DNA of 64,000 nt from NCBI GenBank assembly GCA_004369045.1, contig ML213513.1, positions 1 to 64,000 of the forward strand. Direction: 5' to 3'. Both the position numbers and the translations under genes were made by a program. Source of the DNA: Heliocybe sulcata (lineage: Eukaryota; Basidiomycota; Agaricomycetes; Gloeophyllales; Gloeophyllaceae). The notes below the pieces were generated by a model, which was not told where the DNA came from, did no database searches, and saw only the letters and a list, made by a program, of their open reading frames with translations. Every line of letters begins with the position of its first letter. The first letter of the stretch is position 1. Of this stretch, positions 14,471-58,767 are shown in pieces.

Positions 14471-16730
14471 CTGTCACTCACCATACCTAGCTTTCTTTCA
14501 CTTCTTCGCCGCGCTGACTGGATTGCCATGCATTCGCCCGTGGAGCTGCATGTCCCTGAACTTCCTCACGATCACACGATCAAGCGAGAATCAATATTCA
14601 CAGCTCGCTGATGAACAAGTTGCCCTACACAAGTTCTTCAGATTATTGGCTTCCGGCAAGATATGATTGAGGAGCGCAGTACAGGACATGGAAGACTTAG
14701 CTGCGCGCAGCAGCCAGACTCATGCTGGAGGTGTGGCTGTCGTGCGGCCGTGGCGAACGCGCTCGATCGCGCCTCGGCGCATTCGACGCTCAGCATCGCG
14801 GCTCTCTGGAAAACACAATCGTGCATACTCTACAAAACGCTTGGTCTTTAACTGGCCTTATCTGTTGTGGTGTTGCATTGCTTGTCTGCTGCCACAGCTG
14901 GCGGACCCTTGTCGTCGAACTGAAGATCGTGTACATCTCCACGCCTCGAGAGCCTCTGAATGCTTCCTTAATACTGCGGAGCCCTGCTGTGCGGCGGAGT
15001 CTTCTAAATAGTAGCGCCTCGCCCTTGACACCAACACTGCGGCGCCGATGTTTCTTCCTCCCGACACCGACAAACTGCAGAACCTCACCATTCTTCCAGT
15101 AATAACCGGTAGCGTCGACACCTGCCACGACATCGACAACTGCAGGACACTATTGGAGATAGTCCGAAGCTGCTTCATCACGATCTTTGCATGTACATGG
15201 GTCTCTCTTCACCTAAACATCCCTCCTCGAGACCAAGCGTGGTACCGAGGACCGTTGCGCCATTTCGGCGTCATGCTGATGGGCATTATCGCGCCAGAGC
15301 TTGTCGTTGCGTGGGCTGCGCGACAGTGGTACGTCTCTAGGGAGCTCGAAAAGAAGTACCGAAAATACGCAGGTACGTCCTCCAGTGCCTATCCAAACGA
15401 TGCGTACAAAGTCACCCCTGGCCAGATATGCATAGGAAGCCGTGGAGTCGGACTCACAGCTTCTTTGCACTAATGGGCGGATACGTTCTGTGCGACGGGC
15501 GCAGCGCCGAGGTACTCGACATCGACGTCGAGCAAGACTTCGTCGACTTCTTCAGCTCCAGCGACAGCCGCACCCAGCTCACAGCAGACGACCTCGCCGA
15601 CAAAGGCAAGAAGGACTGGCTGTCGAAATCCTTCGCCGTGGTCCAAACGGCGTGGTTCATCCTGCAATGCGTCGCGCGTTCGATCCAGCACCGAGCGCTG
15701 TCTGAGCTGGAGGTCGCAACGTGCGGGTTTGCGGTACTTAATGCTGTCACGTACTATCTCTGGTTTGATAAGCCGCAAGGCGTCCGCCTGCCGTTCTTGG
15801 TGGACATACAAGGGTCGGTTTTGGCGATCGATAAGCTGGGCGGATGCATCGTACGAGCTGAGGAACCTGGAGCAGGTACGTGTGGTCATAATGGTCTACA
15901 TCCCTTGGGTAACACTCACGATATATTAGGGCGTCAGCCTCAGGTACCCTCGGCAACCAGGGGAAGTACGCAGTATCTCCAAAGCTCGCAACCCACAGGC
16001 CCGAGTTCCCACCAGCACCAGCAGCCAGAGCTCCCTGTTGTGCATCATTTATGGACGAAGCTCACCGATTTTCTTCACAAGCGACTTCCATCAGGTATCC
16101 TCTACGCCTTCGTCGAGATGGCAGGCAACGACCACCTCCACGCTCATGAACTCTCCGGCACTGCCGTCCCCACGTTCTACTCGGGAGACTGCACCCCGAA
16201 ACGCGACGACGTCGCCATCACCATCTCCGTTGGGTTCTCTATCCTATTCGGCGCCATCCACTGTCTAGCATGGCGCTTCGACTTCCCCTCCTACGCAGAG
16301 GCCACGATGTGGAGAACTTGCTCCCTGGCCATAACCTGTCTTCCCGCGCTCCGGCTCGTGACGTATTTCGTCCAGAGCTGGGCGCCCGCGACGTACGAGT
16401 TCATGATGAGGAACGTGCTTGGGAAGACCATTGTCGACGTGAAGGGGTGGGGATGGTGGGTGCTCGGGCTTCTGGTGAAGATGGTTAACCACTTTGGTGT
16501 AATCGCGTATATCGGGGCGAGGTTCATATTGCTCGTGTTGGTGTTTACGCTCCTGAGGTCGCTTCCTCCGAGTGCTTTCGAGACTGTGTCTTGGACCATG
16601 TTTATTCCGCACATATAGGCAGTAGTTATATATCGTGCTTGTGGTACAGACCAGCAGAGGAGATGCGACGTCAAGGGACCCCGCTCAGTATCTGTCGAGA
16701 CATTTTCAAGGAGATGATGATCGGGATATA
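14470..16730 (+). repeat. Inverted duplication, left arm
   Basis: This arm is reverse-complementary to 21410-23640. Across the coding core, 15048-16618 pairs with 23078-21508 base for base with no insertion or deletion in 1,571 bp (position p pairs with 38126 minus p). Similarity extends outward, with more divergence, to about 14470 on one side and about 16730 on the other, where it stops near the shared stretch gtcaagggaccccgctc. Confidence 0.93.
15048..16618 (+). CDS. Multi-pass membrane protein, NCRTL/IPHI family (arm copy 1)
   Basis: Three exons, 15048-15372, 15426-15875 and 15930-16618, give 487 residues. The family has these marks: MFLPP start, CHDIDNCRTLLEIV, a first membrane helix ending ACTWVSLHLNIPP, a second with IIAPELVVAWAARQW, then WSRTHSFFALMGGYVL, a TAWFILQCVARSIQ helix, LSELEVATCGFAVLNAVTYYLW, FGAIHCLAWRFDFPS, and a C-terminal helix pair ending TVSWTMFIPHI. 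I count seven or eight helices. To my knowledge the family is widespread in agaricomycetes, with many paralogues and no assigned function. The start was chosen because the intact paralogue at 36138 and the copy at 57187 begin in the same way. The middle intron (15876-15929) is 54 bases long and free of stops, so a retained form would also be readable. Compared with its partner at 21508-23078 I see five amino-acid changes against about ten silent ones. Confidence 0.9.
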
Positions 16731-17154
16731 CTCTAGAAGATGCGCACCAGAACCATATCCACACATTTACGGCCCGGGTCCTCCTCACCTGCACGCGTGA
16801 CCATTCCGACGACGACAACGGAGTATGCCTCACTTTGGTGCGGATGGGGAGCGGGCAAGGGTTTTTGTATATGCTCGCTGGTCTGTCAGTATCGCGGCCC
16901 CCGGTTCGAATCAAGCCTCACGACGCAGCGAAGCGGCACGGAAGATACTTCATACCGATAGTCATACTAATAAATGTAAATGAGAGGAAAGATGAAACGA
17001 AAGTAGGAAAGTACTAGGAGCGCCTAAGTATGCTAAAAGTACACCGATACCCTGCGCTTCTCAAAGTCCGCAAGCTACTGAGTCCGAGGGTGTGGCGCGA
17101 GGGGAGGCGCAGGGAAATGGGAACCTGAATCCAAGAAACTCGCCGCCGTTAGTG
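16731..17154. other. Intergenic between left arm and SKN1-like gene
   Basis: Short frames only. A B-box-like ggttcgaatc lies at 16903-16912, but no foldable tRNA surrounds it. Confidence 0.45.
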
Positions 17155-19843
17155 CTAGCAGCCGTCATACTAAGTCTCGTCAGCGCAAAATATCAGTGAC
17201 TAGACAGGTGCGACTCACGAGTGAGTTCTTCGGCCACGAGTACCCCGCGCCCGCACCGTCGCCTGTGTTCCTCCACTGGGTATAATTAGGATCTACATAC
17301 CCTCATCAGCCCAATCCCACCACTTCTTGCCCCCATGCAACTCACTGATATACGCATCCATATGCTTGTTAATATAGTCCTCAGTCGGGTAGTCCTTCGG
17401 ACTGCACCCCACGTTCGTCTCTCCTTTCCGCTGGTACACCCGTACGTAATCAACGAGCATCTCCGCGGGGAACTCCATCGTCGTCAAGTCAATCTTTTGC
17501 CAATTCGCTATAGAACGTCAATATCAAGGCCCGCAGCTTCATGCAACTTTAACAAACTCACAAGAGATACCCAGATTAAGCACGATCGACTGCATCCCAG
17601 AATTGTTTGATAGTTAATATGAGGAGTAGAGATGACGACGCACCATAGGCTCTTCCGGGACCAACCGCTGATCGACCTGGCTGCCGCCATCGCCCGTATC
17701 AGGACCCATAGCCGCCGCGCCCATACGCACGGTCGGCGCGCCCGCCGTCTGCCAAGTAATAAACCCATCTCCGGGGTTCTTCGGATCCGTCCAGTACTCA
17801 AACCCTGCCGGCAACCATCAACCTCGATCCCAACCCAAGCAAGGCGCACGTACCGAGCGTGGTGAACACCTGCCCCGAGCCCTGGAACATATCATCCGGA
17901 AGACGCGAGAGCGCAGACACCGCCTGTTGCCTAACCCCAACCCATCGCATCAGCGCCCTGCCGATCCCGATCAGAAGCCGCACTTACACCGCCGATCCCC
18001 TGCAAATCCCCATGTCCGACTCGGACTCAGCCTTGCATCCCTTGTTCAAGAATGACGCACCGATAAGTATTGGGCCTCGTGATATCCGTATTATTAATCC
18101 AGAACTTATCCGTCGTATCGTTTTGGAACAGGTAATCGTGTGTAAAGGGCGCAAACTGCGCAGACTGAGACACCACCTGCCCGACGTTCGTCAGTTTGTC
18201 CTTCTCCGCCTCGAGAATGTCGATCTCGGGCGCGCCGCGGCCTTTCGAGACGGACGGGCCAGGGTGGTCTTCCCCAGGGCAGGTACATGAACTGATGTAT
18301 AGCCCGTTAGTGGACGACGGGAGGTGGGAGAGGAGGACGCACGAGAGCCGTTGGCCCGGCAGCCAGGAGAGCTCAAAGTTGTACTTGGAGCGTGATTCAT
18401 CCGAGTGCAGCGCTGCTGCGGGGCCTGAGCCGTCTTTGAGCGTCTGGTTCGGGAACGTGCCGAGGTCACAAGCATCGTAGCTATACAGAGCGTTGCAGCG
18501 CGTAGTAAGACTGGAAACGTGAACTCACGAGTAAGGCCACGTCCCGTCCGTGGTCGCCATGTAACCCGGTCGCCCTAAATTGCCCATCGTCCACGCACCA
18601 GGCCACTACGCCATGTCAGCTCTCTATCCCAACCAGATGAAAAACGACTCACGTAACCCTGCGTGTTCGAGTCCGGTCCGGGGAGCGTCAGGCTCACCTC
18701 CAGATACCCATGCGTAAAGCAGAACTTGTTCCAGCTCTGCAACATGCCGCTCTTGTACGGCAGCCCATGGGTCGGAACCTGCTCCATGAGGATGCGGAGG
18801 TGGCCGCCGGTCGTCGTGATCTGATCGGGGTCGTACCACTCCTGGTCCATCGTCGAGCCGTACCAGATATCCGCCGCTTCCCAGAAGGGGTCGTCCCCGG
18901 GGTAGAACGTGCGCCCGTCGGTGTTGAACTCGTCCGAGAAGACGAGCTCGTAGTCGTACCCGTCGAACCCTTTCCGGGTCTTGGCGTCCTCGGGCGTCTC
19001 CGGGTCGACGAGCTCGGGCATTTGGAAGCTGAGAAAATGAGTACCGAGTCAGCGAGACCCAGGGAGCACTCACAGGACGGGCACCTGGCCGGTGCCGTTC
19101 ACGCGCGTGTTGTCGGTGATCGCAAAGGCCTTGTAGCGGTCCTGGACGAAGCTGAGGACGGGGTAGCCGATGAAGAGGCAGAGGAGGGCAAGGATGAGGA
19201 CGATGAGCAAGCCCACATTCGCAAACCCTCTCCAGCCGAACCGCGAGCGTGTGGGCTTGACGTCGTCCAGCTCGCCGTCGCCATCGTCCGCCAGGGGGTC
19301 GTACGCGTACGCCACCATGCCCCGCGGGTACATCGCCGCCAACCCAGACGGGTACTTGGAGTCGGAGCTCATCGAGTACATCGAGTCGCCAGAGCTAGAG
19401 ATGACCGAGTCTCGGTTGTTGCCAGGTAGGCTCCTAGGAGGGAGCAGTTCCGTGTTGTCGTCGTCCGAGGCAAGCCGGTAGAGCAGCATCGACCCTCTGT
19501 TCGCGCCCAGTGCCTGCGAGTCCTCGGACGCTATCCGACTGAAGAGCATGCTCCCTGTTCTCGAGAGCGGCCTCGGACGGGCAAAGGGCGTAGCCGGTGG
19601 CGACGCACCCGCATTGGGGTTCAGAGGCGACGAGACGAAAGCGGGTCCTGACGACGAGATGCGGGGTGCCCGGACGTTGTCTGCGTTGGGCGCAAGGAGG
19701 GGCTGGTCGATAGAATTGGCTGTGGAGGGGCTGGACGGCGGGTGGTAAAAAGCATTCTGGTGGGACTCGTCGGACGACATGGGGGTGGTGACATCGCGCG
19801 GAGCATCGTCGCTGCCTCTACCGCCGTCGACGTTGGCAGACAT
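17155..19843 (-). CDS. KRE6/SKN1-type beta-glucan synthesis-associated protein
   Basis: Twelve exons on the reverse strand: 19843-19074, 19028-18653, 18605-18529, 18480-18343, 18291-18061, 17999-17988, 17930-17854, 17804-17644, 17589-17562, 17507-17346, 17292-17219 and 17169-17155. They total 2,121 bases, or 706 residues. A Ser/Pro-rich cytosolic tail of about 208 residues precedes one membrane helix (about 209-233, LLIVLILALLCLFIGY), giving a type II membrane protein. The lumenal part is a GH16-like fold: VFSDEFNTDGRTFYPGDDPF, WYDPDQITTTGGHLRI, GYMATTDGTWPYS, the active-site-like GRGAPEIDILEAE (Glu476, Asp478, Glu481), FEYWTDP, EMLVDYVRVYQRKG, and the terminal WPKNSLYDGC. The family acts in the secretory pathway in beta-1,6-glucan assembly. 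The 12-base exon restores RGSAVQQAVSAL. ATG 19843 was chosen because the longer frame begins with GTG. The gene looks intact. Confidence 0.94.
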
Positions 19844-21385: not shown

Positions 21386-21409
21386 GACTGTAAAATTGGA
21401 CGGTATCGG

Positions 21410-23640
21410 ATTTCCATCCTTAACTCGTCAAAATGTCTGGGTGGACACCGAGCGGGGTCCCTTGACGCCGCATCTTCTGTGCCACAAGCACAATATATAA
21501 ACATTGCCTATATATGGGGAATAAACATGGTCCAAGACACAGTCTCAAAAGCACTCGGAGGAAGCGACCTCAGGAGCGTAAAGACCAACACGAGCAATAT
21601 GAACCTCGCCCCGATATACACGATCACACCAAAGTGGTTAACCATCTTCACCAGAAGCCCGAGCACCCACCATCCCCACCCCTTCACGTCGACAATGGTC
21701 TTTCCCAGCACGTTCCTCATCATGAACTCGTACGTCGCGGGCGCCCAGCTCTGGACGAAATACGTCACGAGCCGGAGCGCGGGAAGGCAGGTAATGGCCA
21801 CGGAGCAAGTTCTCCACATTGTGGCCTCCGCGTATGAGGGGAAGTCGAAGCGCCATGCTAGACAGTGGATGGCGCCGAATAGGATAGAGAACCCAACGGA
21901 GATGGTGATGGCGACGTCGTCGCGTTTCGGGGTGCAGTCTCCCGAGTAGAACGTGGGGACGGCAGTGCCGGAGAGTTCATGAGCGTGGAGGTGGTCGTTG
22001 CCTGCCATCTCGACGAAGGCGTAGAGGATACCTGATGGGAGTCGCTTGTGAAGAAAATCGGTGAGCTTCGTCCATAAATGATGCACAACAGGGAGCTCTG
22101 GCTGCTGGTGCTGGTGGGAACTCGGGCCTATGGGTTGCGAGCTTTGGAGATACTGCGTACTTCCCCTGGTTGCCGAGGGTACCTGAGGCAGACGCCCTAA
22201 TATATCGTGAGTGTTACCCAAAGGATGTAGACCACTATGACCACACGTACCTGCTCCAGGTTCCTCAGCTCGTACGATGCATCCGCCCAGCTTATCGATC
22301 GCCAAAACCGACCCTTGTATGTCCACCAAGAACGGCAGGCGGACGCCTTGCGGCTTATCAAACCAGAGATAGTACGTGACAGCATTAAGTACCGCAAACC
22401 CGCACGTTGCGACCTCCAGCTCAGACAGCGCTCGGTGCTGGATCGAACGCGCGACGCATTGCAGGATGAACCACGCCGTTTGGACCACGGCGAAGGATTT
22501 CGACAGCCAGTCCTTCTTGCCTTTGTCGGCGAGGTCGTCTGCTGTGAGCTGGGTGCGGCTGTCGCTGGAGCTGAAGAAGTCGACGAAGTCTTGCTCGACG
22601 TCGATGTCGAGTACCTCGGCGCTGCGCCCGTCGCACAGAACGTATCCGCCCATTAGTGCAAAGAAGCTGTGAGTCCGACTCCACGGCTTCCTATGCATAT
22701 CTGGCCAGGGGTGACTTTGTACGCATCGTTTGGATAGGCACTGGAGGACGTACCTGCGTATTTTCGGTACTTCTTTTCGAGCTCCCTAGAGACGTACCAC
22801 TGTCGCGCAGCCCACGCAACGACAAGCTCTGGCGCAATAATGCCCATCAGCATGACGCCGAAATGGCGCAACGGCCCTCGGTACCACGCTTGGTCTCGAG
22901 GAGGGATGTTTAGGTGAAGAGAGACCCATGTACATGCAAAGATCGTGATGAAGCAGCTTTGGACTATCTCCAATAGTGTCCTGCAGTTGTCGATGTCGTG
23001 GCAGGTGTCGACGCTACCGGTTATTACTGGAAGAATGGTGAGGTTCTGCAGTTTGTCGGTGTCAGGAGGAAGAAACATCGGCGTCGCAGCGTTGGTGGCA
23101 AGGACGAGGTGCTACTATTTAGGAGACTCCGCCGCACAGCAGGGCTCCGCGGTATGAAGGAAGCATTCAGAGGCTCTCGAGGCGTGGAGACGTACAGGAT
23201 CTCCAGTTCGACGACAAGGGTCCACCAGCTGTGGCAGCGGACGGACGGTGCGACATGACAGCATGTACTGCCAGTCAAACCAAGCACACCAAGTGTTCTA
23301 TAGAGTACACGAAGACTATGCTTTCCACAAAGCCACGATGCTGAGCGTGGAATACGTCGAGGCGCGATCGGGTCCGTTCGCCACGGCCGGCACCTCGAGC
23401 ATGAGTCTCGCTGCTGCGCGCGGCTACGTCTTCCATGTCCTGTACTGCGCTCCTCAGTCATATCTTGCCGTAAGCAAATGATTCGAAGAACTTGTGTAGA
23501 GAAACTTGTTCGTCAGCGAGCTGTGGATATTGATTCTCGCTTGATTATGAGGGATATGCAGCTCCACGGATGAACGCATGGCAACTATGGTAAGGGAGAG
23601 AGGCGACCAGCTCGAGAAGTCCCAATTGCTTGTAGATTGA
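21410..23640 (-). repeat. Inverted duplication, right arm
   Basis: Reverse-complement partner of 14470-16730. The coding core is about 99% identical by eye and collinear without gaps. The region upstream of the gene (23079-23640) is more diverged from its partner and has small indels. The arms are separated by about 4.7 kb holding the SKN1-like gene and a repeat. Confidence 0.93.
21508..23078 (-). CDS. Multi-pass membrane protein, NCRTL/IPHI family (arm copy 2)
   Basis: The mirror copy of the gene at 15048-16618 has exons 23078-22754, 22700-22251 and 22196-21508, again giving 487 residues. It keeps every splice site and reading frame, the NCRTL motif, the MGGY motif after the first intron and the IPHI terminus. 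Protein differences from copy 1 are five, for example LEIVQSC for LEIVRSC, CSVAITC for CSLAITC and GVIVYIG for GVIAYIG. About ten further coding differences are silent, which suggests that both copies have stayed under purifying selection, or that conversion keeps them alike. It lies between direct repeats at 21165-21385 and 23695-23935. The function is unknown. Confidence 0.9.
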
Positions 23641-23935: not shown

Positions 23936-24115
23936 CGTTCTACCGGACTGGATGGAAGATGTTCAGACAGGTTAATACTTTCCATTATGGTAGCACAACT
24001 TCTCATCTATCTCGCAGCACGCATCACACTTCTCACCATTGGTTTCTTCTCCATGAGCCCCCTCCCCGCTGCCGCGTACCGTACGGTCTCTTGGACGAAC
24101 TACATTCCCCATATC
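23935..24115 (+). pseudogene. C-terminal remnant of an NCRTL/IPHI membrane-protein gene
   Basis: The last part of the family is readable: YLAARITLLTIGFFSMSP, then PAAAYRTVSWTNYIPHI, where the usual stop is replaced by a sense codon. Everything upstream of the final helix is missing. The 3' flank (a stretch like caggctgtacgatccgttgt) is shared with the copies at 43035 and 57187. It sits tail to tail with the intact H+-ATPase gene, as the longer copies do with the ATPase pseudogenes. Confidence 0.85.
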
Positions 24116-24189: not shown

Positions 24190-25349
24190 TGCAGACATTT
24201 TTGGGCCCTCTGCCGAACGTTGAGCCCGTGTGAATAAATTGTGCCGAGTAATCGGGGTAGGAAATGTTTGTAGTTAGTCACTACAGTTTATTCGAAGTCC
24301 GCTTGTATGGATACTACAAAACAGGTGTGGCGCTCAGTTGTATAGTAATTCCGTCGATGTCTTTTGTCTCTCTCCATCTATTCTATTCCGTTCCTGCTGA
24401 TCTGCTCAATATAAGGTCTTCCATAAAGAAGGTACGCCCTGAAATATTCTCACAAATTTATGTGCTGCCGTTCCTTCTGAGGATTGGCGGTGGCTGCTGA
24501 GAAGCTTGCTTACCGTGAGAATCCTTTTTTGTAGGGTCTTTGAAGTCACTATTTCTGACGCTTACTGCCTTCTTAGACGCCCGGCCGCTGTAGGTACAAC
24601 CTCTTGCATCCACGGTACCCCGCCGCCTGACCTTGTGCTTTGCGTTGTAGGTGCTCATCGTCGTTGCGCGCGAGTGACGCACACGGGCCACGGCGGTTCC
24701 CATCGCTCGACTGTCACTGCACTGTTTCGCCGGCCGCGTTGCTCTGTATGTTTGGCTTACAGGTGGTCTGGCGGTCGTGCATGTAGTCTGTCCCTGTATC
24801 TCTCCTCGAATAACAAGAGGAGATCTCGCCCGTCCGACACACGAAATAGAAGGCCCTGGCATGCTCGGTCGCTAGTCTAAAGTGTTGGAGGATGGGTCAT
24901 GTTTGCGTAATCTACGATGGTTTGTAGAGGTAATCTGCACTGTAATTTACTCACAAAGATATGCTGCAACCCTTCAGGTCTCAGGACTCGTATAAATTGC
25001 CACGCTTGCGGTGGCCGGCTACCCCAAGTATATAACATTTTTGGGTGGCAATAATGTCCGTGTTACGACGTTGAACGTTGAGGAAGCGTATCGAGTGTGG
25101 CGAAGGGGGTATTGTGCAGCATCACTCTTTCCGACATCGTCCCTAGGAAATTGACGACCTACCGCCAAAGGTCTCCTCCCAGAAAACACTCCGCGGGGCG
25201 AGAATTGAAATCATCGCATTACATTACACAACTCGTACAAATCTAACGTCTCGCTACATAAGCTGTTCGTACAATACTGTCCATGTCCTTTTCCAAGATC
25301 CGGATCTAGAAATATATGCCTCGGCTCGTATATCATACACCATTCATGT
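24190..25349. other. Convergent intergenic region, part of the duplicated block
   Basis: Between the membrane-protein remnant and the ATPase 3' end. The segment at about 25040-25349 matches 58850-59068 (shared: cattacacaactcgtacaaa and cgtctcgctacataagctgt), showing that the block duplication included the spacer. Overlapping frames at 24458-24880 on both strands look random. No gene is supported. Confidence 0.6.
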
Positions 25350-28300
25350 TTACTTCTTCTCTGCCTTGTCTGTTTTCTCCGTCTTCTCCTCCTTGGGCTG
25401 TCCGCCCGACGCTGCCTCGGCCCTTTACAAGATATGAGTAGAAGCACCCAACAGTGTATGCAAGATAGACCTACTCGGGCTGGAACCGGAAGACATCCTC
25501 GTGTCCATTCCCGCCGCGCTCGTGAACCAGAGTGACACGGCGGAGGTTAGATATAAAGTCCTCGTGCTTCGCGTCCTTGACACCGCGCTTCTGCCTTCCG
25601 ATATTGTCGAGCCACTATCGAAAGCATTCAGTCATCGTGAGTTCCTACACGAACGAGTGAAACTCACGGGAATGCTGTTGAGGATGAAGTAGCTAGACAA
25701 CAAACGTCAGTCTCGCCTGTGGGGTGTACGAGAAGGGCGACGTACACTAATGCGAGGACCACGGTGACTCCGAACGAGAAGGCCCAGACACGGACGACAG
25801 TGACGATATCCGTGTGCCTGCCAGCCAGCTCCAGGTCAGCGCCGCAATGACACCAGGGCATTATGAACATACCCGTTGTGAGGCTGCGACCCCGCCAACC
25901 AGCCAAAGAGCGCAAAGATACTGGCCAGAATGTCAATAGCTCCGATCGCGGCGACCAATTGCCACGACGGCTACAAACCGTCGTCAGTCTTGACTTGCGC
26001 CTCACTGCTAGAACAAACTCACCCAAGTCCCCGCTCCGCGAGTCACGAAAATAAGCCAGTTCTAAAAAGCCCCATGAGCCTCGCCTTCAATGAATACCCA
26101 GGGAGGACACCCACCTCCGTCAACGCCACCTCGAGGAACAAAATCTCCTGCACACTCCCCCAATTTTGTATAACACCCCCGCTGCTCAAGAAAAGCGTCC
26201 CGCGCAAGATCCACGTCGCGCCCGCAAGCAGGATCCCCAGAATCGTCGAGATGATCCAGATCTTCGGGAGCTGCCACTCGACGGGCGCGCGCGCGTGCGG
26301 AGCATTGTCGTACGCGATCGCGATGGTGCCCAGGTCCGCGAAGAGCGCGATAAAGACGATCAGGTCCGCGCGGATAGTCTCGTTCAGGATGATCATCGAG
26401 AGCGTGCTGTTACCAGTGTCAAAACATGCGAACCATGAGGAATGGGGATACTCACAGATAGATCTCCAGGTGCAGACACAGCGCAATCCGGTAAACGATA
26501 TACGCTACCCCTTCATCAGTCCCAACTCCCAACCAAAGAATCAAACAACTCACCCTTCATCCGATGGAAAATCTGCCTCGCCACCTTAATAGACGTAATA
26601 ATCGTCGACAGACCCTCATCCAAAAACACCACATCCGCCGCACTCCTCGCCGCATCCGACGCGCCCTCCACCGCAATCCCACAGTCCGCCTTCTTCAACG
26701 ACGGCGCATCGTTCACCCCGTCCCCCGTCATCGCCGTCAAATGCCCCCGGTTCTGCAGCATCTCCACAACCTGATACTTGTGCTCTGGCGCAACCTCGGC
26801 AAACCCGTCCGCGCTCTCCACAAAATCGTGCACGTCAGACCCGGACATCCCACCCGTCATCAGCCGCTGCGAGTCGTACACGTTCGTCCCCAGCGCGAGC
26901 TGCTTGCACGTCTCGATGGCGATCGCCACAGCGTCCCCCGTGAGCATCTTCACGCGCACACCCAGGTTACCTGCCTCTGCGATCGTCTACGCAGCCCTGT
27001 CAGTCCTTCTCCCACCTCGCGCTCAGGAACACCAAACACTCACCTGTGCAGTATCCGACCTCGGGGGATCAAACCTACGCACATCAGAGCCCAGCACAAC
27101 AACGAAAACGAAAGCCACGCACATCGGCAACAGCCCCAGAATCTGCCACTCCCCGCCCTGCTCCTGACACGCCACACCTAGCGTCCTAAACCCCCTCTTC
27201 GCAAACTCCTGCGTCCGCTGCCTATAACTCTCCTGCAGCTCCTGGCTCGCATTCGCAAGCTTCAAAATCCTATTTCCCAATCAGCATTTGCCCCGACCAC
27301 CCCAAACCACACTCACGCATTCGGCGCGCCCTTCGCAACAGTCCACCTCTTCCCCTCCTTCTCTACCTCCGCCGTAATCCGCTTACTCACAGGATCAAAC
27401 GGCTTGAACGAATGTGTCGTCCACCCCCCCTGCAGCATCTCCCGCGCCTTCGGGTAATCCTTCAACGTCACCACCGTCACTTTATCAATCGGGTCCAGCG
27501 CCTTGATATTGTGGCTGCTCGCGAGCACCGCAGCCGCGAGCATCCAATTCAGGTCGACGCCCTCTGCCGCCCATGGCTCGTGCACAGACAGCTGGTTCGC
27601 GGTCAGTGTCCCCGTCTTGTCCGTGCACAGGATGTCCACGCCCGCGAGCCTGTTTGTGTCACCATAAGTATTGAGATGAGAGATGAAAGATGCAAAGACA
27701 ACGTACGACTCGATCGCGGTCAGCTTTTGCACGATCGCCTTCCGCCGAGCTAGGAACGCAGCGCCCACAGCGAGCGTCGTCGTCGTCACGCACGGCAGAC
27801 CGACCGGCACGCCGATAATCTATGTTGACATTAGTCGGCTAATGAGAATAGGCGGAGGGGGAGGGACGTACGAGGAGAACGAGCGAGTACACCAGCAAGT
27901 TGTTGTCCGCAGGGGTAGAAATCAGCACATGCCTAAAGAACCCGCCGATCCAAATGGCCAGTAACCAAATAACGACTCTATAAATCCACCATCAGCATTC
28001 CTCATCCTCCACCCTCCCCCAGGCAAGAAAAAAAACACTCACAAAACCAACAACGTCGTCCCAATGCTATTCATCACCTTCTGAAAATGCCCCTGATCAT
28101 TCGCGCCCGTCACAAGGCTCGCCGTCCGCCCCACAAAGCTCTGCTTCGCTGTCTCCGTCACCACCATGTAGACCTTCCCCCGCTTCCCGCCCGTGGTGTA
28201 ATAGATCGTGTCGCCAATGTCTGCGAGGCCCATCTTAGCTTTACGAGGAGGTAGGGAGAATAAGAAAGGGAGGACGCACACTTGTCCACAGCCAAACTCT

Positions 28301-29466
28301 CCCCCGTAATCGCGCTCTGATCGCACGAAAACACGCTCGGGCCTTTATCCTCCTTCTTGTCCTCCCCTTCCTCTCCTTCCTCCTCCCCGCGTTTCTTCTC
28401 GTCTCTTGCGGTCTCGCCAGAGTCGCGGTCCTGCGACTGCGAACGGGAGTTGCCTGTCGACGCCTCGCGTTTATCGAGTATGGATTTCGCGCGCGAGCGG
28501 TCTTTATCGTCGTATGCCGCCAGAATCTACGCGCACTTCTCAGCCCCACGTCCCCCCTCCCAAGAGAGCAAACGCACCTTGCCATCCGCAGGGACAGTTT
28601 GCCCCTCCTCGACGACTACAATGTCCCCCGGCACAATCTCCCGCGCCTCGATGACCTGCTCCTCCCCGTTCCGCACCACCGTAGCCTTCATCGCGATCCC
28701 CGCTTTCAGCTGCTCGACGATATCGCCCGCTTGTTTTTCTTGGTACCACCCGACGAAGGCGTTCAGCGCGAGGATGCCGATCTGGAGACGCGGTCAGTGT
28801 GAACGGAAGGAAGAGGGAGACGAGGGGAGGGGACACACGATGACGCCAAAGTCGATCCAGTCGCGCAGGCCCGCGGCGAGGATGACGGCCAGCTCCATGA
28901 CGTATAGGACGGGCCCTTTGAAGTAGCCCAGGAATTTGAGGATGGGGTTCTCGCGTGGGCTGCAGGCAGACTTGTGAGCATCTCATCCGTCCAGCGCAGC
29001 GACCCGCTCACCTCTCGAGCTCGTTGTACCCGAACCTGTTGCGGCGGTTCGTAATCTCGTCGTCCGGCAAGCCCTGCAGCATATCCGTCTCGAGCCACCG
29101 TGGGGGGACCTTCCTCTTCCCCTCCTCCTCGACCGCGACCTTCTTCCATGGCGCGTACCACACCCTCCTCCACTCCTTCTCCTCGTCCTCGTCCCCGCCC
29201 TCGTCCCCGCCGCGCTTCGCGCGCTGCGCCTCGTAGTCGATGTACTTCAGTAACCGCGTGTACTCGTCCGGCTCCTTCTCGATCTCGGCCATGGGGTCGA
29301 CGTCGTCGTTGCGCGCGTCTTCGGCGTGGGGGTCGCCGCGCTCGAGATCGGGGTCGGCGTCGGGGTTGCGCTTCTCGGAGGGGGAGGAGGGGCCGCGGTT
29401 GGTGTCGTTGGCATCGGCGCTGTTGGCGGCTGCGGCCTTTACGTCGCCCGAGGGCAGCGTCGACAT
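25350..29466 (-). CDS. Plasma-membrane H+-ATPase (P-type IIIA)
   Basis: I could close 19 exons in phase, totalling 3,174 bases or 1,057 residues: 29466-29012, 28959-28839, 28781-28578, 28526-28280, 28238-28043, 27977-27872, 27819-27707, 27649-27317, 27269-27123, 27074-27044, 26986-26554, 26504-26456, 26406-26115, 26061-26023, 25970-25873, 25817-25746, 25692-25668, 25614-25475 and 25422-25350. The enzyme pumps protons out of the cell using ATP. Motifs in order: [19 protein letters not shown] near residue 334, the PVGLP helix-4 motif, [11 protein letters not shown] with the phosphorylated Asp near 491, [25 protein letters not shown] near 738, and [12 protein letters not shown]. The N-terminal tail is long and acidic, and exon 4 carries a Lys/Glu-rich insert. 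The C-terminus is short and charged ([13 protein letters not shown]). It is the only apparently intact ATPase of four copies here. Confidence 0.95.
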
Positions 29467-31000
29467 GGTGGTGTGGAAGGGGGAGAGTAGAGACCACTCC
29501 ACCTCGCGCGTCTTAAGAGTCGTCGTGCACTCTAAACGGTGCCCAAAAATAAAGTCGAAAGTGACGTCGAGTGGCCATTTCAGAATTGCGGGCTAGGAAC
29601 GAGGGCGTCATTGAAAAGACGCCAAGACGTCACCACTGCCGGCGGTGAGTCTGAAATAGCCCTTCTAATTTTAGCTTTACGTGGCTGTGCACAACAGAAC
29701 CGCCGGCTTGTGTCTTGGCCAAGTCTTGGCGATAACTTGGCGATGTACACTAGGACGACCTCTCCAGCCAGAACGTCTATCACCAGGCCTATTCCATTTG
29801 CTTATCCTTGTGGAAAACGGGTCGGTAGCGTTCGCCAGTGGTCTACGCGTCTGAGTGGGGTTCGGCATGATATCATGGTCACGTACCAGGAGGGCACCAC
29901 CAGAATGCCATCAGTTTCGGTGCGTTTGTTTTCTCAGCGGTTCGGTCATTGATGCAGGCTTGTTCAGGGCTCCACGGTCTCGTACAGAGCGCTGACGTGG
30001 GTCCATACGCGGTGAATAGTGCGTACATGCAATCCGAGAACAGCAGGGGAAGCCCTCGCATGTTGCAAGCACGCGTGTGTCCCTAACCCAAACATCTATC
30101 AATTGACTTTGCCTATGATCCAAGTCTAACCCGCCCTACCGCTCACCTCCATATATCGGTCCGCCCGACCACGCACAACTAACTCTGTCCCTCTCCTTCA
30201 CGCTACTGGCCGTGCGGGTTACCTGGCACAGCTGGCCTCCTCAACACTACGTGTGGACCAGTGACAGTCGCGAACTGGCAGCATCGTATAGCCCGCTGTA
30301 CGAAGCTTCGCGTCCTGGAGATGCGGCGTCCCTGATGTCGCCTTCTCCCAGGCACGGGTATTTCGCCGCGTAAGTAGAATCAACACGATAACGTTAGCTC
30401 TCGAAACTGTGGGCTGTCTGGGATATCAAGTAGTTCGCGGTACTTCCGACACAAACGGCATGACTTGTACCGAGAGTGCAGGGGTCTGGGCCAGGCGAGA
30501 GGGAAGGATGGTCATACCGGGATCGCGAAAAGGACTTCATAAAGTCGAAGACACTGAGAGAAGTCTACAGGACCTCGACCACGAGTACCTACTTGAAAAG
30601 GACGTGCGATCACCCATCGCTACCACGCGACGCTTAATCGCACGGTACACGAGCAACTCCTGCAACGTCCTGGGCATGGCTCCGATATACTGTGAAGAAC
30701 CCTGGCACTAGGAACGACGGACGATCCACGTCTGAGCCTCCGCCTGCCTTGTATCTCCCAGCGTCACCTTGGTTTAGGCCCAAAGCACAAATATCGGCCT
30801 CTTCTGGCATGACAGCGATACTGTCCCCGGCACCGAGATGCTTCCTGCGAGAAGGCAACAAAGTAGTGGGGATCAGGGTTTCCATGCTATCAAGCTGCGA
30901 GATCCCTTCAAGCAGCAGAGGATTCAGTATCAGGTACGGCAATGGAGTTAGCGTTCAAGCCCACCCTGGAAGCGCGCACAGATATGAATTATCTGTTGAG
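29467..31000. other. Repeat-rich intergenic region
   Basis: This holds the ATPase promoter and about 1.5 kb without a supportable gene. The stretch at 29870-29985 is a diverged direct copy of 31655-31790 (shared: atcagtttcggtgcgtttgt and cattgatgcaggcttgttc). The frame at 30409-30711 has no recognisable content. Confidence 0.55.
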
Positions 31001-32002: not shown

Positions 32003-34063
32003 TCTCGCAGGCGAATGTGCAGCAGCTTACTGCGACTGACTCCTAAGTCGCGGTGTCGTATTCTAAGCATTCCGTCGCTGACTAGGACTGGCCACCCCCA
32101 GCCTCGCGAGCTTCGACGTACTCTGCGCGGACAAGACGGGGACGCTCAAGGCAGACCAGCTGTCGGTAAACGAGCTCTGCGCGGCGGGGTGTGTGGATCT
32201 CAACTGCATGCTCACGAGCAGTCAAAATAGTAAGGCGCTCGGCGCGATTCAGGTGACGGTGGTGACGCTACTATCTAAGAGGCGTGGGGCGTTAATATTG
32301 ATAGATCAAGACAGCCGCGCTGATTAGCTTGGCTGCAGGCAGTGGAGATGCTGCAAGGTTGGTGGATGACGCACTCGCTCAAGCCGTTCGACCTGTGAGC
32401 AAGCCGATCTCTACGGACGTGTAAAAAGACGGGAAGCGGTGGATTGTTGCGAAGGGGGCGTGATGATGCGTATGATTCGATAGGGTATTGGGTCTGGCGG
32501 ACGCTAATCAGGAGCTGCATGAGAGTTATAAGCAGCGGACGCAGGAGTTTGCGAAGAGCGGGCTCATGGTGTTCGGGTGGCGTGATAGGAGCAGGGAGAC
32601 GAGTGGCAAGTCCTGGCGCTGTTGCCTATGTATGTCTGTTCCAATTATCGCTCCTCTTCTGGGATCTGATGTGGTGCGGGTATCTGTAGCTTCGATGCGC
32701 CGCATTCGGATACTGCTCAGGTGCGCCTAAGTGCCTCTGTCGCTTGAGAGAGATAGAAGTGCAGATGGCCTGGTGGAGACGATTTCGGAGGGGAGTAGTC
32801 TCCGGTGGCGATTGTTATCGAGATGTGCAAACAGCTTGCGCTAGGACAAACGTGTACAATTCGCAGCGGCCGATGACGGGGGGATGTCGGGGTCGGATGT
32901 GCGTGATTTTGTGGAGAACGTGGACGGGTTCGCGGAGTGGCGCCGGAGCACAATTATCAGGTAGTGGAGATGCTGCATGATTAAGTTCGACTGCGATGAC
33001 GACATGCTGTTAACGATGCATTGTCTTTGAAGAAGGTGGGCATCCCTCGTATATGCTGGATGATGTGAGGCTGATTGGAGATTCGACAGGTGGACTGTGG
33101 TATCGCTGTCGAGGGGGCCACGGACGTCTTGGATGGGGAGTTCCTGAACGAGGTTCTCTCGACTATTACCACGCCTGTCCAGGTGGCTCGTCAGATCTTC
33201 CACCGGATGGGAGGGTAAGCGAATGCGATGTCGAATATGAACTCTGGTCATCTGACACGAGCTTGCAGCTTCCTCGTCTGCCGCATTGCACTGTGTGTGC
33301 ACCTGGAGATCTATCTGGAAGTATCCTCGATTCATACCGGTTCTGACACAGGTAATGTAGCGCGCTCTCGATGGCCATCCTCAACGAGGCCACACGCGCC
33401 ACTCCAGTCGTCTTTAGAAAAGGTTTAGTTTTGTCACTCGCACAGCCGGGATGTGGAGGAGTGCATCTGGATAACGATATGCGACGTGGAAACTGAGGAT
33501 GTCGTTTAGCCGTCGTTGCAACTGGTTGACGTTATCGCAGCTATTGATATCCTCACCAGTATCTTTGCACTTTTCGGCTGATTGGCAGGCTCCTAGCCGC
33601 ATAATGGGTATGTTCCCAGTACTGTCGTGTCGCTGCGACGCTGACCTTGAGTTGTTTGGCAGACATGCTGATATCGGCACTGTGGTCCGTGAATTGGTGT
33701 ACATGATCCCGTCTCGAATATCCCATGGAGGAGACTGACGTTGCCGTCTCGCTACTTCATCGTGAACAACATTTTCGTAAGTTTCACTTATTATTCTGCG
33801 ACATCCCTATCACTGAACGCTTTCGATAGTGGCTCGACAATATCGGAAGGCAGAAGCGCGGTGTCAAGGACACGAAGCACGGGGACTTTATAACTAACCT
33901 CCGCCATGTCACTCTGCTTCATGAGCGCGGCGGGAATGGACACGAGGATCTAGCCCGAGTAAGGCTTTTTCTGTACACTGTTGGGTGCTTTGCTCACACC
34001 TTGTACAGGGCCGAGGCAGCGACGGGCGGGCAGCCCAAGGAGGAGAAGACGGAGAAGACGTAA
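32003..34063 (+). pseudogene. Decayed P-type H+-ATPase gene copy
   Basis: On the forward strand, fragments in the right order match exons 7-19 of the ATPase at 25350-29466: a QQLTATD-like remnant near 32020, VLCADKTGTLKADQLSVNEL near 32120-32180, an ANQELHESYKQRTQEF piece near 32500-32550, GMSGSDVRDF near 32880, HRMGG near 33200, and a C-terminal [10 protein letters not shown] ending at 34061-34063. Several exons are shortened or missing, and frames are broken many times. Its DKTGT region differs enough from the intact gene to suggest an older, separate paralogue. It is tail to tail with the membrane-protein gene at 34407-36138. Confidence 0.88.
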
Positions 34064-40446: not shown

Positions 40447-41724
40447 GTGCGCAAACCCCCGCCAACCACCAGCAGGCCTGCTGAACGGCCTGGGGTTCTC
40501 GCACCACCGCGCTCGTCTGGTATCCGAAAAGGTCGCAAGCCGCGGGCAGACTGCGACATTGCCCCCAGTCCCTATCGTCCCCACGTCGCCGCTGTTGATC
40601 GGCTGCGAGCATGGACATCCCCTCACTCCACCTGCCTAGACTCCCGACTTCGCCTGGAGCTGTCGCCGGGAACCGCGAATGCGGTACAACACCTCCTATT
40701 CACAGCACTAGAGCCTTCGACGCTCACTACCTATGGTGCCGGCCTTCTTAGATTTCACCAGTTTTGTGACAGTGAAGGGATCCCCGAGTCCTCTCGTATG
40801 CCAGCCTCCCGCTACCTTCTGGCCGGTTTCGTTGCTCACCACGCAGGAGCAGTCTCAGGCGGCACCCTCTCCGGCTGGCTGACCGGCCTCCATGCCTGGC
40901 ACGACGTCAACGATGCACCCTGGCACGGTGACTCCCACTTTGTTTCGCTGGTCCGGACCTCAGCATCGAAGCACGCACCGCTCTCCTCCCGCCGTGCGCA
41001 GCGGGCCCCGGTGACGATCGAGCATCTCTTGGCGCTGGAGCTCTTCCTCAGCCCGGACAATCCCAGAGACTGTGCGGTCCTCGCTGTCGCCCTCGTCGCA
41101 TTCTGGGGCTGCTGCTGCCTTGGCGAACTGACCGTTCCTTCTCGCTCGGCCTTCGACCGTCGCCGGCACGTTGCTATGGCCCCTCGGCCCGTATTCAAGT
41201 CTCTCCCCTGCAGTGTCGAGTCAGCGCTCTTTACGATACCATTCGGCAAGGTGGAGAAGGAGTCGGGTGCTCACATCTCGCTCACTGGGAGGAATCTCCT
41301 CTGCCCCGTGCGCGCCTTGCGCCACCACCTGGATCTCAACTCGCGCGTGCCAGACAACGCCCCGCTCTTCGCGTACGCGACCGCTGATGAAGGCTGGATG
41401 CCCATGACGAAGTCGGCCTTCCTTGGCCGCTGCAAGGAGGCCTGGGACCCGCTGCGTCTGTCACGCGTGTCTGGGCACAGCTTCCGTATCGGCGGCACTA
41501 CTGAACTTCTCTTAGCGGGAGTCCCCCCCGAAACCGTTGCAGCCCAGGGCCGTTGGAGGTCGCTTGCTTTCCTCCTGTACTGGCGGCGCCTCGAGGATCT
41601 CCTCCCCCTCACCATCTCGAAATCATATGATAGATCCCGCATCGCTATGCTTAAGTCTGACTTCGACGCATACCGTGTTCGTAATAACCTGCCCGCTGAT
41701 ATTCCCGATAGTCTCGTCGCATAA
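40447..41724 (+). CDS. Tyrosine recombinase of the YR retroelement
   Basis: A frame of up to 425 residues after the RNase H frame; the true start is uncertain. An N-terminal SAM-like core-binding region (LTTYGAGLLRFHQFC) precedes the catalytic domain, in which the CCCLGELTVPSR, GHSFRIGGTTELLLAGV and GRWRSLAFLLYWRR blocks are visible. These are the hallmarks of the phage-integrase-like enzymes that insert DIRS/Ngaro-type circular DNA without target-site duplication. Confidence 0.85.
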   Translation: MRKPPPTTSRPAERPGVLAPPRSSGIRKGRKPRADCDIAPSPYRPHVAAVDRLRAWTSPHSTCLDSRLRLELSPGTANAVQHLLFTALEPSTLTTYGAGLLRFHQFCDSEGIPESSRMPASRYLLAGFVAHHAGAVSGGTLSGWLTGLHAWHDVNDAPWHGDSHFVSLVRTSASKHAPLSSRRAQRAPVTIEHLLALELFLSPDNPRDCAVLAVALVAFWGCCCLGELTVPSRSAFDRRRHVAMAPRPVFKSLPCSVESALFTIPFGKVEKESGAHISLTGRNLLCPVRALRHHLDLNSRVPDNAPLFAYATADEGWMPMTKSAFLGRCKEAWDPLRLSRVSGHSFRIGGTTELLLAGVPPETVAAQGRWRSLAFLLYWRRLEDLLPLTISKSYDRSRIAMLKSDFDAYRVRNNLPADIPDSLVA

Positions 41725-43034: not shown

Positions 43035-44325
43035 TTAAATATGAGGAATGTAGTTCGTCCAAGAGACCGTACGGTACGCAGCAGCCGGGAGGGAGCTCAG
43101 GGAATGAAAAGCGATGGCGAGAAGTGTGATGCGTGCCGCGACATAGATGAAAAGTTCTGCCGCGAGAATGTAAGTCATTAAGCCGTCTAAAGCACCTTCC
43201 ATCCAGTCCGGCAGAGCGGCCTCAAGGACGACAATGGCAGTTGGGGTAGAGACGGTGAGAAGAGGCAAACACGTGACTGCGAGTGAACAGCCCCTCCACA
43301 GGATCTGCTGAGTGTGTGAGGGGAATTCGAACGTCCATCCGATGCAGTGGATGGCTCCGAAGGCTGACGAGCAAGCGACTGCTATGAGGGTCAAGACCCA
43401 CTCTTCGTCCCCGACATCTCCGGAGTAGTAAGAACTAACATGTATATCCTGCACCGAGATGTCCGCCCCAGACATCATGTTCACCAGAGGCGAGACTGGG
43501 ATGGCGATGAAAAGGAGAAGAATCTCCCGAAAATCTTCGGCCTCGTCCCAGCTATGCAAGAGCCCCCAAGTTCTGTCAACAGTTGCAGCCATGGTCTTCT
43601 TGGGGTTTGACCATGACAGTCCCCAAAGCGTACCTCGCCACTTTTCATGACGGTTAGAAGAGGAAGCCTGGGGATCTCTCGAAGGTCCTGCATCTGAACC
43701 AGCGAGGTCCATACTGAGTGATCGCACGGTTCTGCCGATTGCGTAGGGACAATCAACGGCCTTCTTGGCTTGTTCCACCAGAGCCCGTAGACGACTGCAT
43801 TGAGCACGGCAAACGCGCACGTCGCAAGCTCCAGCTCCGTCAGAGGAAGGCGCTGAATGCGGCGAGCAATGCACTGTACAAGGAACCAAGATGTTTGGAG
43901 AATGGCGAAGCCTTTCGAGAGCCAGTCACCCTTGCTCTTGTCATGGATCTCGCGCTCTGTTATGTCTGGGAAAGGGAGTGTCGACATGACAAGGCTATGC
44001 GGGGTAGACGCACTGTGAATACTGTCCAAGCCAGGGGATAATGTCATGTTCTCGAGAGGCAATAGATGAACAGAGTCACTCTCAGGCCTGCCACCATTCT
44101 CGTGTATGTCGTCCGGCGTTCGCAAAGGCGAGGACGACGAGCGACTTCGGGCATGGGCGTCGTTCTTGCTGACGACTCCTAGGGATGAGCAAGCTTCATC
44201 CTTCACAGAAACCTTGCAGGCGCAGCTTGCACCGCACCTGCACTGAATGCCGTCGCATTTTGATCCCAATGTATTCAAATCTTTGTAAGGGTTAACAACC
44301 CTCACTGGGTGGCCGCACGCAAAGA
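43035..44325 (-). pseudogene. 5'-truncated, frameshifted NCRTL/IPHI membrane-protein gene
   Basis: The second exon of the family is present from HPVRVVNPYKDLNTLGSKC near 44310 to YRTVSWTNYIPHI at the 43035 end, including the Cys-rich loop and all later helices. The first exon with NCRTL, IIAPE and the MGGF lead-in is absent: similarity breaks at about 44320, and unrelated sequence supplies a chance ATG (MHLASQLFACG). Near 43770 the text ccaagaaggcc replaces ccaaaggcc of the sister copy, a two-base gain that shifts frame after WWNKP. The remainder is well preserved, so loss of function looks fairly recent. Its nearest relatives are the copies at 34407 and 57187. Confidence 0.88.
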
Positions 44326-46009
44326 GCTGAGAAGCGAGGTGCATTCAGGTCTGAGGGACGGCAGTGTCACGTACTTACATTTCACCGGATGGACCTGTGG
44401 GCTAAGCGCCGTCCGCACGACTGCATGCGTAGACGGGCAGAATCTCATTTCGGTACGATCGTGGACTCATACTTGATAGATGGGCGTGTAGTAGTCTTCC
44501 ATTCTTCCATTCACTGAATGGTTGTACCACGTGGATGTCGTCCATAGCGAGACGCTGGCAAAGATCCTACGCGAATCAGTCAATAGTGCCACAGAGTGAG
44601 AGACCCATGGCCGTAGGTCGGACGTGATGCCCTTGCGAGGCAAGTTGTACCGGTACCTGTCATGTCAATATATCAGCTCGGATAGCAAATATAGGACAAG
44701 CGCAGAAAGCTTACCGTCGACCATGGGATATGCGCGATCGCAGCGAGATGGCCGAAGCAAGCAAATATTCGTGCATTCACACGAAGAGAGCGGGTCCGAA
44801 CAGGGCCGACAGCAACAATGAACGTGCTCACTTGTGCTCGCTCTTCCTTCTTTCATAGTCGCGGACTATCCTATCTCCGTCTCACAGCCAACTGCACCCG
44901 CGAATGTACGGCTCCGAACCTTATAGCTCTAATGAGACAGGGCACCTAAGCGCTGAGAAGAGACTTAGAGATTCACATCGACGTGACGGACCTGCGATCT
45001 GTCATCGTAACCAAATTGCCGACCAACCCTGTGTGAGAAATGGAGAAAGGCGATTACTATATGGACCGGCATTAACCCCTTACCCAGCAGTACCCACCAG
45101 TTCCATCGTGATCCACTCCGCACACTCTCGAGCCCCAGATCCCAACCCCCGGACGACGGTCCTTCTCCAAGGCAGATTACAGTGAGACCTCCATAACCGC
45201 ACTGAATGGGAAGGTCCCAAGGCAGCGAGAAGATCAAGGCGGGAAGTCTCATTAGCAAGGTCCACGCGACTCACGCTGCTTTTCACGCTCCCATCAAAAG
45301 CTCACTGCATTGGGACGGGCCAGCATCGCCCCTAAGCGCACTTCCGGCTGACCTGTTATGTGAGCGCGGTCTCGCGCATTCGAAAATTGCGTATACGCAG
45401 ACCATGGACTTGCTAAAATTCGGGATAATTGGACGAGAATTGGCGCAGTGTCCACACAGAGCAAGTAAAGCGTCAGCTAGCGTGAACAAGACTAGTTGCA
45501 TGTGTAAAATAGACGCCGTCATCTGTCTCCCACCGTGAGGCGTCTGCCTTTCATACAACGAAAGTCACACTGGGGATTGGTCATAGATGAACAGGTAAAA
45601 AGGAAAGGATCCCCTCACCTCCGGATGTCCAATCATTGTGTGCGAATACCAGAGCTTCAGGGTGATATCACTCGACGCCTTCTGCGCATAAACATGAGAA
45701 AGACCGCACCTCCAGACCCATCTGAGACTCATCCATCCTGCTCCCCATTACATATGCCCATTCGACGGGCGAACACTAGATAGGGGCGACACGACGAAAA
45801 CCAGCCTTGCATCGTGGAGAAGCACGTAAATGTTGTCGGGTAGACTACTGGTACGAGTCCGCTGTTGCCAGCTACCGTAGGGGCCATCCTGAAGCAATGA
45901 CATCGACACTTGACTCCGTCTGGATGATTCGACGAGGAAAGCAAAGTCGATGAAACAGGGCCGACCTAGAGCTAAAGGTCGTCATGAGAAAGGCTCGGGC
46001 GTCATCGTT
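44326..46009. other. Repeat-bearing intergenic region
   Basis: No gene is supported. The stretch at about 44655-44890 is an inverted, diverged copy of 56370-56650 (shared: aggatagtccgcgactatg and acaagtgagcac/acgagtgagcac). Frames near 44904-45780 lack content and conserved features. Confidence 0.5.
44655..44890 (-). repeat. Repeat shared with 56370-56650 (inverted)
   Basis: The copies lie upstream of two membrane-protein gene copies (43035-44325 and 57187-58767), on the 5' side of each, so they probably mark the ancestral 5' flank of that gene. Confidence 0.65.
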
Positions 46010-55164: not shown

Positions 55165-55775
55165 ACAATCAGCGGCCGAAGTATCTCCCCCACGCAACCT
55201 CGAGGAACAATATTTCCTGCACACTCCCCCTATTCTGTATCACGCCCCCATTAGTCAGGAACAGCGTGCCAGGCAAGATCCAAGTCGCGCCAGCAAGCAG
55301 TATCCCCAGACTCGTCGAGATGATCCAGATCTTCGGGAGCTCCCACTCGACGGGCGCGCACGCGTGCGGCGCGTTGTCGTACGCGCTCACGATCATACCC
55401 AGGTCCGCCGAGAGGACGATGAACACGATCAGGTCCGCGCGGATGGTCTCGTTCAGGATGATCATCGAGAGCGTGCTACGTTACCTGCGTCATAACATGC
55501 GAACCGCAAGGAACGAGGACACTCACAGGTAGATCTCCAGATGCAAACACAGCGCGATCCGGTAAACAATATACGCTACTCCACGCATCAGTCACAACTC
55601 CCGACCAAAGAAACAAGCAACCCACCCTTCATCCGATGGAAAATCTGCCTCGCAACCTTGATAGACGTGATAATCGTCGACAGACCCTCATCCAAAAACA
55701 CCACATCCGCTGCGCTCCTCGCCGCATCCCACGCACCCTCCACCGCAATCCCACAGTCCGCCTTCTTCAACGTTC
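55165..55775 (-). pseudogene. Fragment of a P-type H+-ATPase gene
   Basis: It matches the middle of the gene at 25350-29466, from the end of exon 11 through exon 13: [56 protein letters not shown] and [20 protein letters not shown], ending near ILFLEVAWG. Intron positions are kept. Both sides end abruptly, so this is an isolated duplicated piece that cannot make an enzyme. Confidence 0.9.
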
Positions 55776-57186: not shown

Positions 57187-58767
57187 ATGTATCTTCTACC
57201 ATCTAACGACTCCGTCTTTCCCATCGCGGCCAGTCCTAATGCTCTCGCGAACGTTTCACTACTTCCTCCACCCTCAAGCGATACTTGCGACAATATTGAT
57301 AATTGCCGCACCCTGTACAATATTGTATGGAGCTGCATCGTGACCATTTTCGCTTGTACCTGGGTTGCGATCCACCCCAACATCCCTCCGCAGGATGCCC
57401 ACTGGGCACACAAGCTGGGTCGACGGGTGGTGACTACCGTATATGCCATCATTGCCCCGGAGTGCGTGGTATTGTGGGCAGCTAAGCAATGGTTTACTTC
57501 GCGTAGGCTGGCAGAGAAATACAAGAGTGCGTATGCCTCATCTCTGCGAAATATGATGCCAAGCCTGGTCACACAGGGAAACACGGGTGGACGCAGACCC
57601 ATGGATTCTTCACCATCATGGGCGGGTTCGTGATCTTCGAAGGCGACCAGCCAGCGAGGGTTCTCGACGCTTACCAAGATTTGGATGAGTTGGGATCAAA
57701 GTATGGCGGCGGCAATGCTGAGAGAAACCGTATTCATTCATTGTCTGATGAGCTCCCGTTATTGTCCACCCCCGTCCATCGTGACACTGGAGTGCACGCC
57801 GCGCCCTCCCTTGATATATCGACTCTCCCTTTCCCGGACATAACCAGCCGAGAGATCCAGGACAGGAGCAAGGGCGACTGGTTCTCCAAGGGTGCCGCCA
57901 TCCTCCAGACATCCTGGTTCCTTGTCCAGTGCATTGCTCGCCGCATTCAGCGCCTGACTCTGACGGAGCTGGAGCTCGCCACGTGCGCGTTTGCCGTGCT
58001 CAACGCCGTGGTCTATGGGCTTTGGTGGAACAAGCCAAAGGCCGTTGATTGTCTCTATGCAATCCGGAGAACCATTCGATCGCTCAGTATTGACCTCACT
58101 GGTTCAGATGCAAGAGCTTCGAGAGATCCTCAAGCTTCCTCTCCTGGCCGTCTTGAAAAGCGGCGAGGTACGCTTCGGAAACTGTCATGGTCGAACCCCA
58201 AGAAGATCATTGTTGCAACTGTTGACAGAACGTGGCGGTTCGCGTGTTGCTGGGATGAGCACGATGACTGGTGGAAGATTCTTTTTTTGCTTATGGCCAT
58301 ACCAGTGTCTCCTCTGGTGAACATGATCCTTGGAGCGGAGATCTCGGTGCAGGTATACACATGTCAATCCTTACTACTCCGGACATGGCGGGGACGAAGG
58401 GCGGGCCTTGACCCTCATAGCATTCGCTTCCTCGTCAGCCTTCGGAGCCGTCCACTGCATTGGATGGGCGTTCGAATTCCCCTCACACACTCAGCAGATC
58501 CTATGGAGGAGCTGTTCACTGGCGATCACGTGCCTGCCTCTGCTCACCGTGTCTATCTTGGTTGTATCTAAAGGCATTCGGCCCTCTCGGCCGCGCTGGC
58601 TGCGACATGTTTTATCTGGTTTAATAATGTGCATTATCGTGGCAGAATTGCCCATCTATGTCGCAGCACGCATCACACTTCTCACCATCGCTTTCCTTTC
58701 CCTGAGCTCTCTCCCAGCGGACGCATACCGTACGGTCTCTTGGACGAACTACATTCCCCATATTTAA
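57187..58767 (+). pseudogene. NCRTL/IPHI membrane-protein gene, frameshifted
   Basis: Exon 1 (57187-57526) and the start of exon 2 (57577) join in phase and read MYLLPSNDSVF, CDNIDNCRTLYNIV, ACTWVAIHPNIPP, IIAPECVVLWAAKQWFTSR, HGWTQTHGFFTIMGGFVIF, LQTSWFLVQCIARRIQ and LATCAFAVLNAVVYGLWWNK. The frame is lost after GAEISVQ near 58350, where one extra base relative to the sister copy (caggtatacaca against caggatataca) moves the remaining helices to the next frame, which then reads cleanly to YRTVSWTNYIPHI. Otherwise every family motif is preserved, so it is either a very young pseudogene or carries a sequencing error. The Cys-rich loop of the 34407 copy is missing. It is tail to tail with the ATPase copy at 59069-62705. 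Confidence 0.85.

Follow-up and report, generated by a model that had tools for sequence, protein, structure and literature searches.

SNB1 of Coprinopsis, a 7TM protein carrying DUF6533, is needed for fruiting-body patterning, and its mechanism is given as unknown (PMC10949477). Unannotated 7TM proteins with DUF6534, which are abundant in Agaricomycetes, have been put forward as novel GPCRs of fungi (PMC12842992). With respect to genomic setting, RecQ helicases in Agaricus bisporus var. burnettii provide a comparable subtelomeric case, a multi-copy family near chromosome ends that includes truncated copies (PMC7473861).

The membrane-protein family described here, from Heliocybe sulcata, resembles each of these systems in part. 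Like the SNB1/DUF6533 family of Agaricomycetes (PMC10949477), it comprises basidiomycete membrane proteins, here putatively 7TM, with a long loop, no known function and paralogues within the same genome, and it shares its unannotated, putatively 7TM character with the DUF6534 candidates. However, neither DUF6533 nor DUF6534 is among the Pfam matches (E up to 1) of the nine copies that retain an open reading frame, and membership in the SNB1/DUF6533 family was rejected on this ground. The RecQ helicases are unrelated proteins and are assigned to subtelomeric regions in the plural, as opposed to a single end here (PMC7473861).

The window analyzed comprises bases 1-64000 of contig 11 (1,104,063 bp), in a genome of 31.6 Mb assembled into 51 contigs. 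Because its first 57 bp (1-57) consist of mixed CCCTAA and CCTAA telomere repeats, the window represents a true chromosome end. The telomere tracts of the window and of other contig ends mix these two units, which is either real or a short-repeat assembly error. Just inside the telomere, a subtelomeric repeat of 600 bp occurs twice (55-653 and 2337-2934, 78% identical), followed by a GNAT acetyltransferase-like ORF at 9184-9843 on the - strand. The interval from copy C to copy D of the family contains retroelement-like ORFs (36887-41721, + strand): one gag-like with a CCHC motif, one resembling RT/RNase H and one resembling a tyrosine recombinase. The latter two labels come from reading the translation, Pfam having given a weak zinc knuckle only. 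The Pfam domain scan in the window took in 20 chosen ORFs, and Rfam returned no matches within the 64 kb.

Six-frame translations and a protein query placed the remnant and each of the five long copies where the preliminary description had put them, and its count of three intact copies proved correct. Copy A (15048-16618, + strand; predicted exons 15048-15372, 15426-15875 and 15930-16618) and its inverted partner copy B (21508-23078, - strand; same predicted exon structure) are open and encode 487 aa each. Copy C (34407-36138, - strand; predicted exons 36138-35802 and 35749-34407) is likewise open and encodes 559 aa, including a Cys-rich loop. Copy D (43035-44326, - strand) is broken, with its first exon missing and a frame change near 43760-43769, as is copy E (57187-58767, + strand), which has a predicted intron at 57527-57576 and a frame change near 58352-58357. 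The remnant (23954-24115, + strand) was recognized by protein match as the final 54 codons of a gene of this family. With the copy C protein as query, the best E-values per window copy range from 0 (C itself) to 1.3e-15 (remnant), which excludes chance. All gene models, with GT-AG introns, are predictions, and those that keep the motifs were chosen among several ranked per gene.

The cluster is real and continues well past the window. Protein queries with copy C, copy B and a copy on contig 7 identified at least 16 family places in the same assembly, of which 13 lie on the contig 11 arm and 12 within 142 kb of the telomere. Beyond the window, contig 11 carries copies F (64.5-66.2 kb, open), G (66.7-68.4 kb, broken), H (82.3-84.0 kb, open), I (91.1-92.5 kb, open, start unsure), J (124.6-125.5 kb, broken), K (139.9-141.2 kb, broken) and L (285.7-287.2 kb, open). 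Elsewhere, open copies are found on contig 7 (227 kb) and contig 13 (360 kb, first intron unsure), together with a heavily decayed relic on contig 22 at ~145 kb (144500-148500; E 0.014, confirmed by eye in the translation), about 413 kb from that contig's telomeric end. In total, nine copies look open (A, B, C, F, H, I, L, contig 7 and contig 13) and seven of the 16 places are broken (the remnant, D, E, G, J, K and the contig 22 relic). Telomere-type repeats were found at 11 contig starts and 5 contig ends, about 16 in total, the ends being judged from coordinates with the length confirmed for contig 22 only (558,562 bp). Among these telomeric ends, family copies occur near that of contig 11 only. 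The concentration near a telomere reported earlier holds for this end, with 13 of 16 places on this arm, but does not extend to a general subtelomeric family, and the copies at many chromosome ends expected of a subtelomeric variable multigene family are not seen (one of ~16 ends).

Two structural forms had been distinguished in the preliminary description: three exons without, and two exons with, a Cys-rich loop. Both forms exist, but the pairing of the two-exon form with the loop breaks down. By reading of the translations, only C, D and, more weakly, F carry the Cys-rich loop, which is lacking from E, H, I, L and the contig 7 copy, all of the two-exon form; the three-exon, short-loop form is that of A, B and the contig 13 copy. 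The motifs called fixed are seen in the family, but variants occur in other copies, including NCRTT, NCRTI and HCRTL; LVAPE, LLAPE and IVAPE; and GLIHC and GAVHL.

Searches for known relatives in Pfam, NCBIfam and PDB gave sub-threshold matches only. For the nine open copies, five Pfam families appeared at E up to 1 (best E 0.013), all sub-threshold, and GPCR models are absent from these five, as are the two DUF models. In NCBIfam the only match was TIGR02206, describing a TMEM164-related integral membrane acyltransferase, at residues 382-444 of A and B (16.6 bits, E 0.0039). This weak match lies just downstream of the GAIHC motif of A and B (366), but its score compares with a cut-off of 75 and it is confined to a near-identical pair. 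With two of nine copies matching at E up to 1, far under the 75-bit cut-off, a TMEM164-like acyltransferase was rejected. PDB sequences yielded no hits with copy C and a single profile hit at E 7.5. The 77 pattern matches in a prokaryote contig collection and the 70 in a virus contig collection contained no relative (tblastn E up to 1e-3). Proteins with the motifs NCRT, APE, MGG and WWNKP presumably fall under PANTHER PTHR35043 (fungal membrane proteins); the literature search found neither this name nor any publication that could be tied to the family.

The alignment mean of the nine open copies contains eight hydrophobic segments. Seven of these are conserved, with a mean share of the commonest residue of 0.61-0.85, and one is not (388-406 in copy C, 0.27). 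Seven or eight helices had originally been proposed; single copies range from 7 to 10 segments, and the charge bias is ambiguous for the orientation of the N-terminus. N-glycosylation motifs occur within the first 42 residues in eight of the nine open copies. An AlphaFold2 model built from the window sequences was unusable (mean pLDDT 32.7, pTM 0.25). We infer that the family is a multi-pass membrane protein with seven conserved helices and one variable hydrophobic segment. Residues invariant in all nine open copies (copy C numbering) include N38-C39-R40-T41, A89-P90-E91, H121, F123-F124, M127-G128, K269, Q275, Q282, R286, E295, E297, K317, H452, W456, W469-R470, R528 and I556-P557-H558. Invariant polar residues are located in or adjoining predicted helices on both sides of the family tree. 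A polar set distributed in this way over several helices would suit an enzyme or transporter better than a diversifying surface protein, and a conserved membrane enzyme or transporter is our best guess for the function.

Several copies bear marks of how they were duplicated. Copies A and B are held in the two arms of an inverted duplication of ~2.2 kb with 93% identity, in which 14523-16706 (+ strand) aligns to 23584-21430 (second arm, 21430-23584, - strand). Between the two copies lies a beta-glucan synthesis gene of the SKN1/KRE6 family (18030-19048, - strand). The duplication contains an identical core of 601 bp (15290-15891) that spans the whole first intron, while its flanks have diverged by 8-20%. 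When differences were spread evenly, none of 20000 simulations of the block produced a run of at least 601 bp, and 15 of 20000 did so when confined to the gene. Since the identity spans an intron, which constraint alone would not spare, gene conversion is favored, and the core is a gene conversion tract between A and B. The pair thus offers a clear case of conversion between inverted subtelomeric copies; no unusual identical run was seen among C, D, E and F.

A second form of duplication involves a P-type ATPase gene. One block near the remnant (25179-28943, - strand) includes a HAD hydrolase domain at 26519-26986, and a Cation_ATPase_N match lies just beyond it at 29011-29592. Above-cut-off matches to PF00702 (37.9 against 26.4 bits) and PF00690 (21.7 against 20.4 bits), located in two separate ORFs taken as one gene, identify a P-type cation ATPase. 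A second block (58928-62705, - strand) adjoins copy E and is 89.5% identical to 25179-28943, and a third (32099-34235, + strand) adjoins copy C in inverted orientation as pieces of 69-75% identity; a further ATPase fragment was detected by sequence match at 55192-55772. The blocks are situated downstream of the remnant, C and E. A genome search with the HAD piece (E up to 1e-10) gave six matches, of which three lie in the window. Judged by this shared arrangement, C, E and the remnant each stem from joint duplication of the family gene with the ATPase gene.

In 34 of the 36 pairs of open copies dS exceeds 2 or is saturated, which indicates that most of the family expansion is old. The exceptions are A/B, with dS 0.048 and a dN/dS of 0.09 that gene conversion confounds, and C/F, with dS 0.74 and dN/dS 0.32; saturated dS makes most other ratios unreliable. 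Segment dN/dS exceeds 1 in none of the computable segments of four pairs (C/F, A/B, A/contig 13 and I/L), many ratios being non-computable and segment averages being able to hide single diversifying sites. The highest values are 0.77 for C/F (loop 491-512), 0.67 for A/B and 0.61 for A/contig 13, and those of I/L reach 0.96 (loop) and 0.92 (N-terminus). Loops are clearly freer, and at segment level these four pairs do not show the diversifying selection expected of a variable multigene family. In a tree of 13 rows, with D, E, G and K partial and the drawn root arbitrary, a well-supported branch parts A, B, the contig 13 copy and K from all other copies; I + L and C + D + E + F are also well supported, while K and H have long branches and unsure placement. 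The three-exon, short-loop form falls on the A/B/contig 13 side of this split. Copies from contig 11 are present in both halves and hence derive from both sides of an old split.

These results bear on why the copies persist. The preliminary description had tentatively linked subtelomeric duplication and turnover to variable interaction with the environment or other individuals. On such a reading, encounters with hosts, rivals or mates would select for divergence among the subtelomeric copies. Telomere adjacency, the many broken copies and the free loops are in keeping with such a role, but the family sits at one of ~16 telomeric ends, its copies are under purifying selection with saturated dS, and conversion makes A and B alike, not different. 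With most dS values high or saturated, no computable segment ratio above 1 and a single chromosome end, we consider this reading unsupported and very improbable; telomere proximity alone is poor evidence for variable function. What survives of the strong turnover claimed is that seven of 16 places are broken, segments have been copied and one conversion tract exists, but not recent turnover aimed at variable interaction. The broken places, the co-duplicated and decaying ATPase blocks and the retroelement-like stretch between C and D would also suit passive passengers, in which a subtelomeric segment with family and ATPase genes is copied by ectopic recombination and its copies head for loss. 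This is possible, though we doubt it: most open copies are old yet still open and both measurable pairs are constrained, which suggests that selection maintains several of them.

A sensory role would make the proteins orphan, GPCR-like 7TM receptors whose paralogues detect different outside cues. Seven conserved hydrophobic segments and the N-terminal glycosylation motifs are compatible with it, as are the precedents of the DUF6534 7TM families proposed as fungal GPCRs (PMC12842992) and of the 7TM protein SNB1, whose mechanism is unknown (PMC10949477). Nevertheless, a receptor appears unlikely, given that GPCR, DUF6533 and DUF6534 models are missing from the Pfam matches even at E up to 1 and that the helix count is 7 or 8 with ambiguous topology. 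Invariant residues of the family also include E (helix 2), H (helix 6) and R (helix 8), and we know of no GPCR signature of this kind. The picture is instead one of routine birth and death of genes, not of a rapidly varying repertoire of surface proteins. To a birth-and-death cluster of a conserved membrane enzyme or transporter, whose copies persist through neutral duplication and purifying selection instead of selection for diversity, we assign roughly even chances. Under this birth-and-death reading, the family has multiplied on a single chromosome arm. The sequences show that most copies are old, with C, D, E and F younger, that the neighboring ATPase gene was at times duplicated jointly with the family gene (C, E and the remnant), and that the inverted pair A/B carries a gene conversion tract. 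The protein might work through the conserved polar set E91, Q275, Q282, E295/E297, H452 and R528 (copy C), and the invariant polar residues suggest that it could act as a membrane enzyme or small-molecule transporter, with neutral duplication and purifying selection on working copies maintaining the family. A bolder form, in which an undescribed class of fungal membrane enzymes or transporters has a buried Glu/Gln/His/Arg set, many functionally distinct paralogues and an inverted pair partly homogenized by conversion near the telomere, strikes us as quite unlikely. Membrane-protein families without domain annotation form part of the unexplored fungal proteome, and this cluster supplies old open paralogues together with a catalogue of invariant positions that mutation tests could target.

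Around the copies outside the window, no partner recurs between loci among the 10 of 53 ORFs scanned, the 53 including family ORFs. Copy L has an AAT-type acyltransferase and, as a borderline match, a polysaccharide deacetylase nearby, and two zinc-binding dehydrogenase ORFs lie close to the copy on contig 7. Near copy H, matches to reverse transcriptase and amidohydrolase fell slightly under cut-off.
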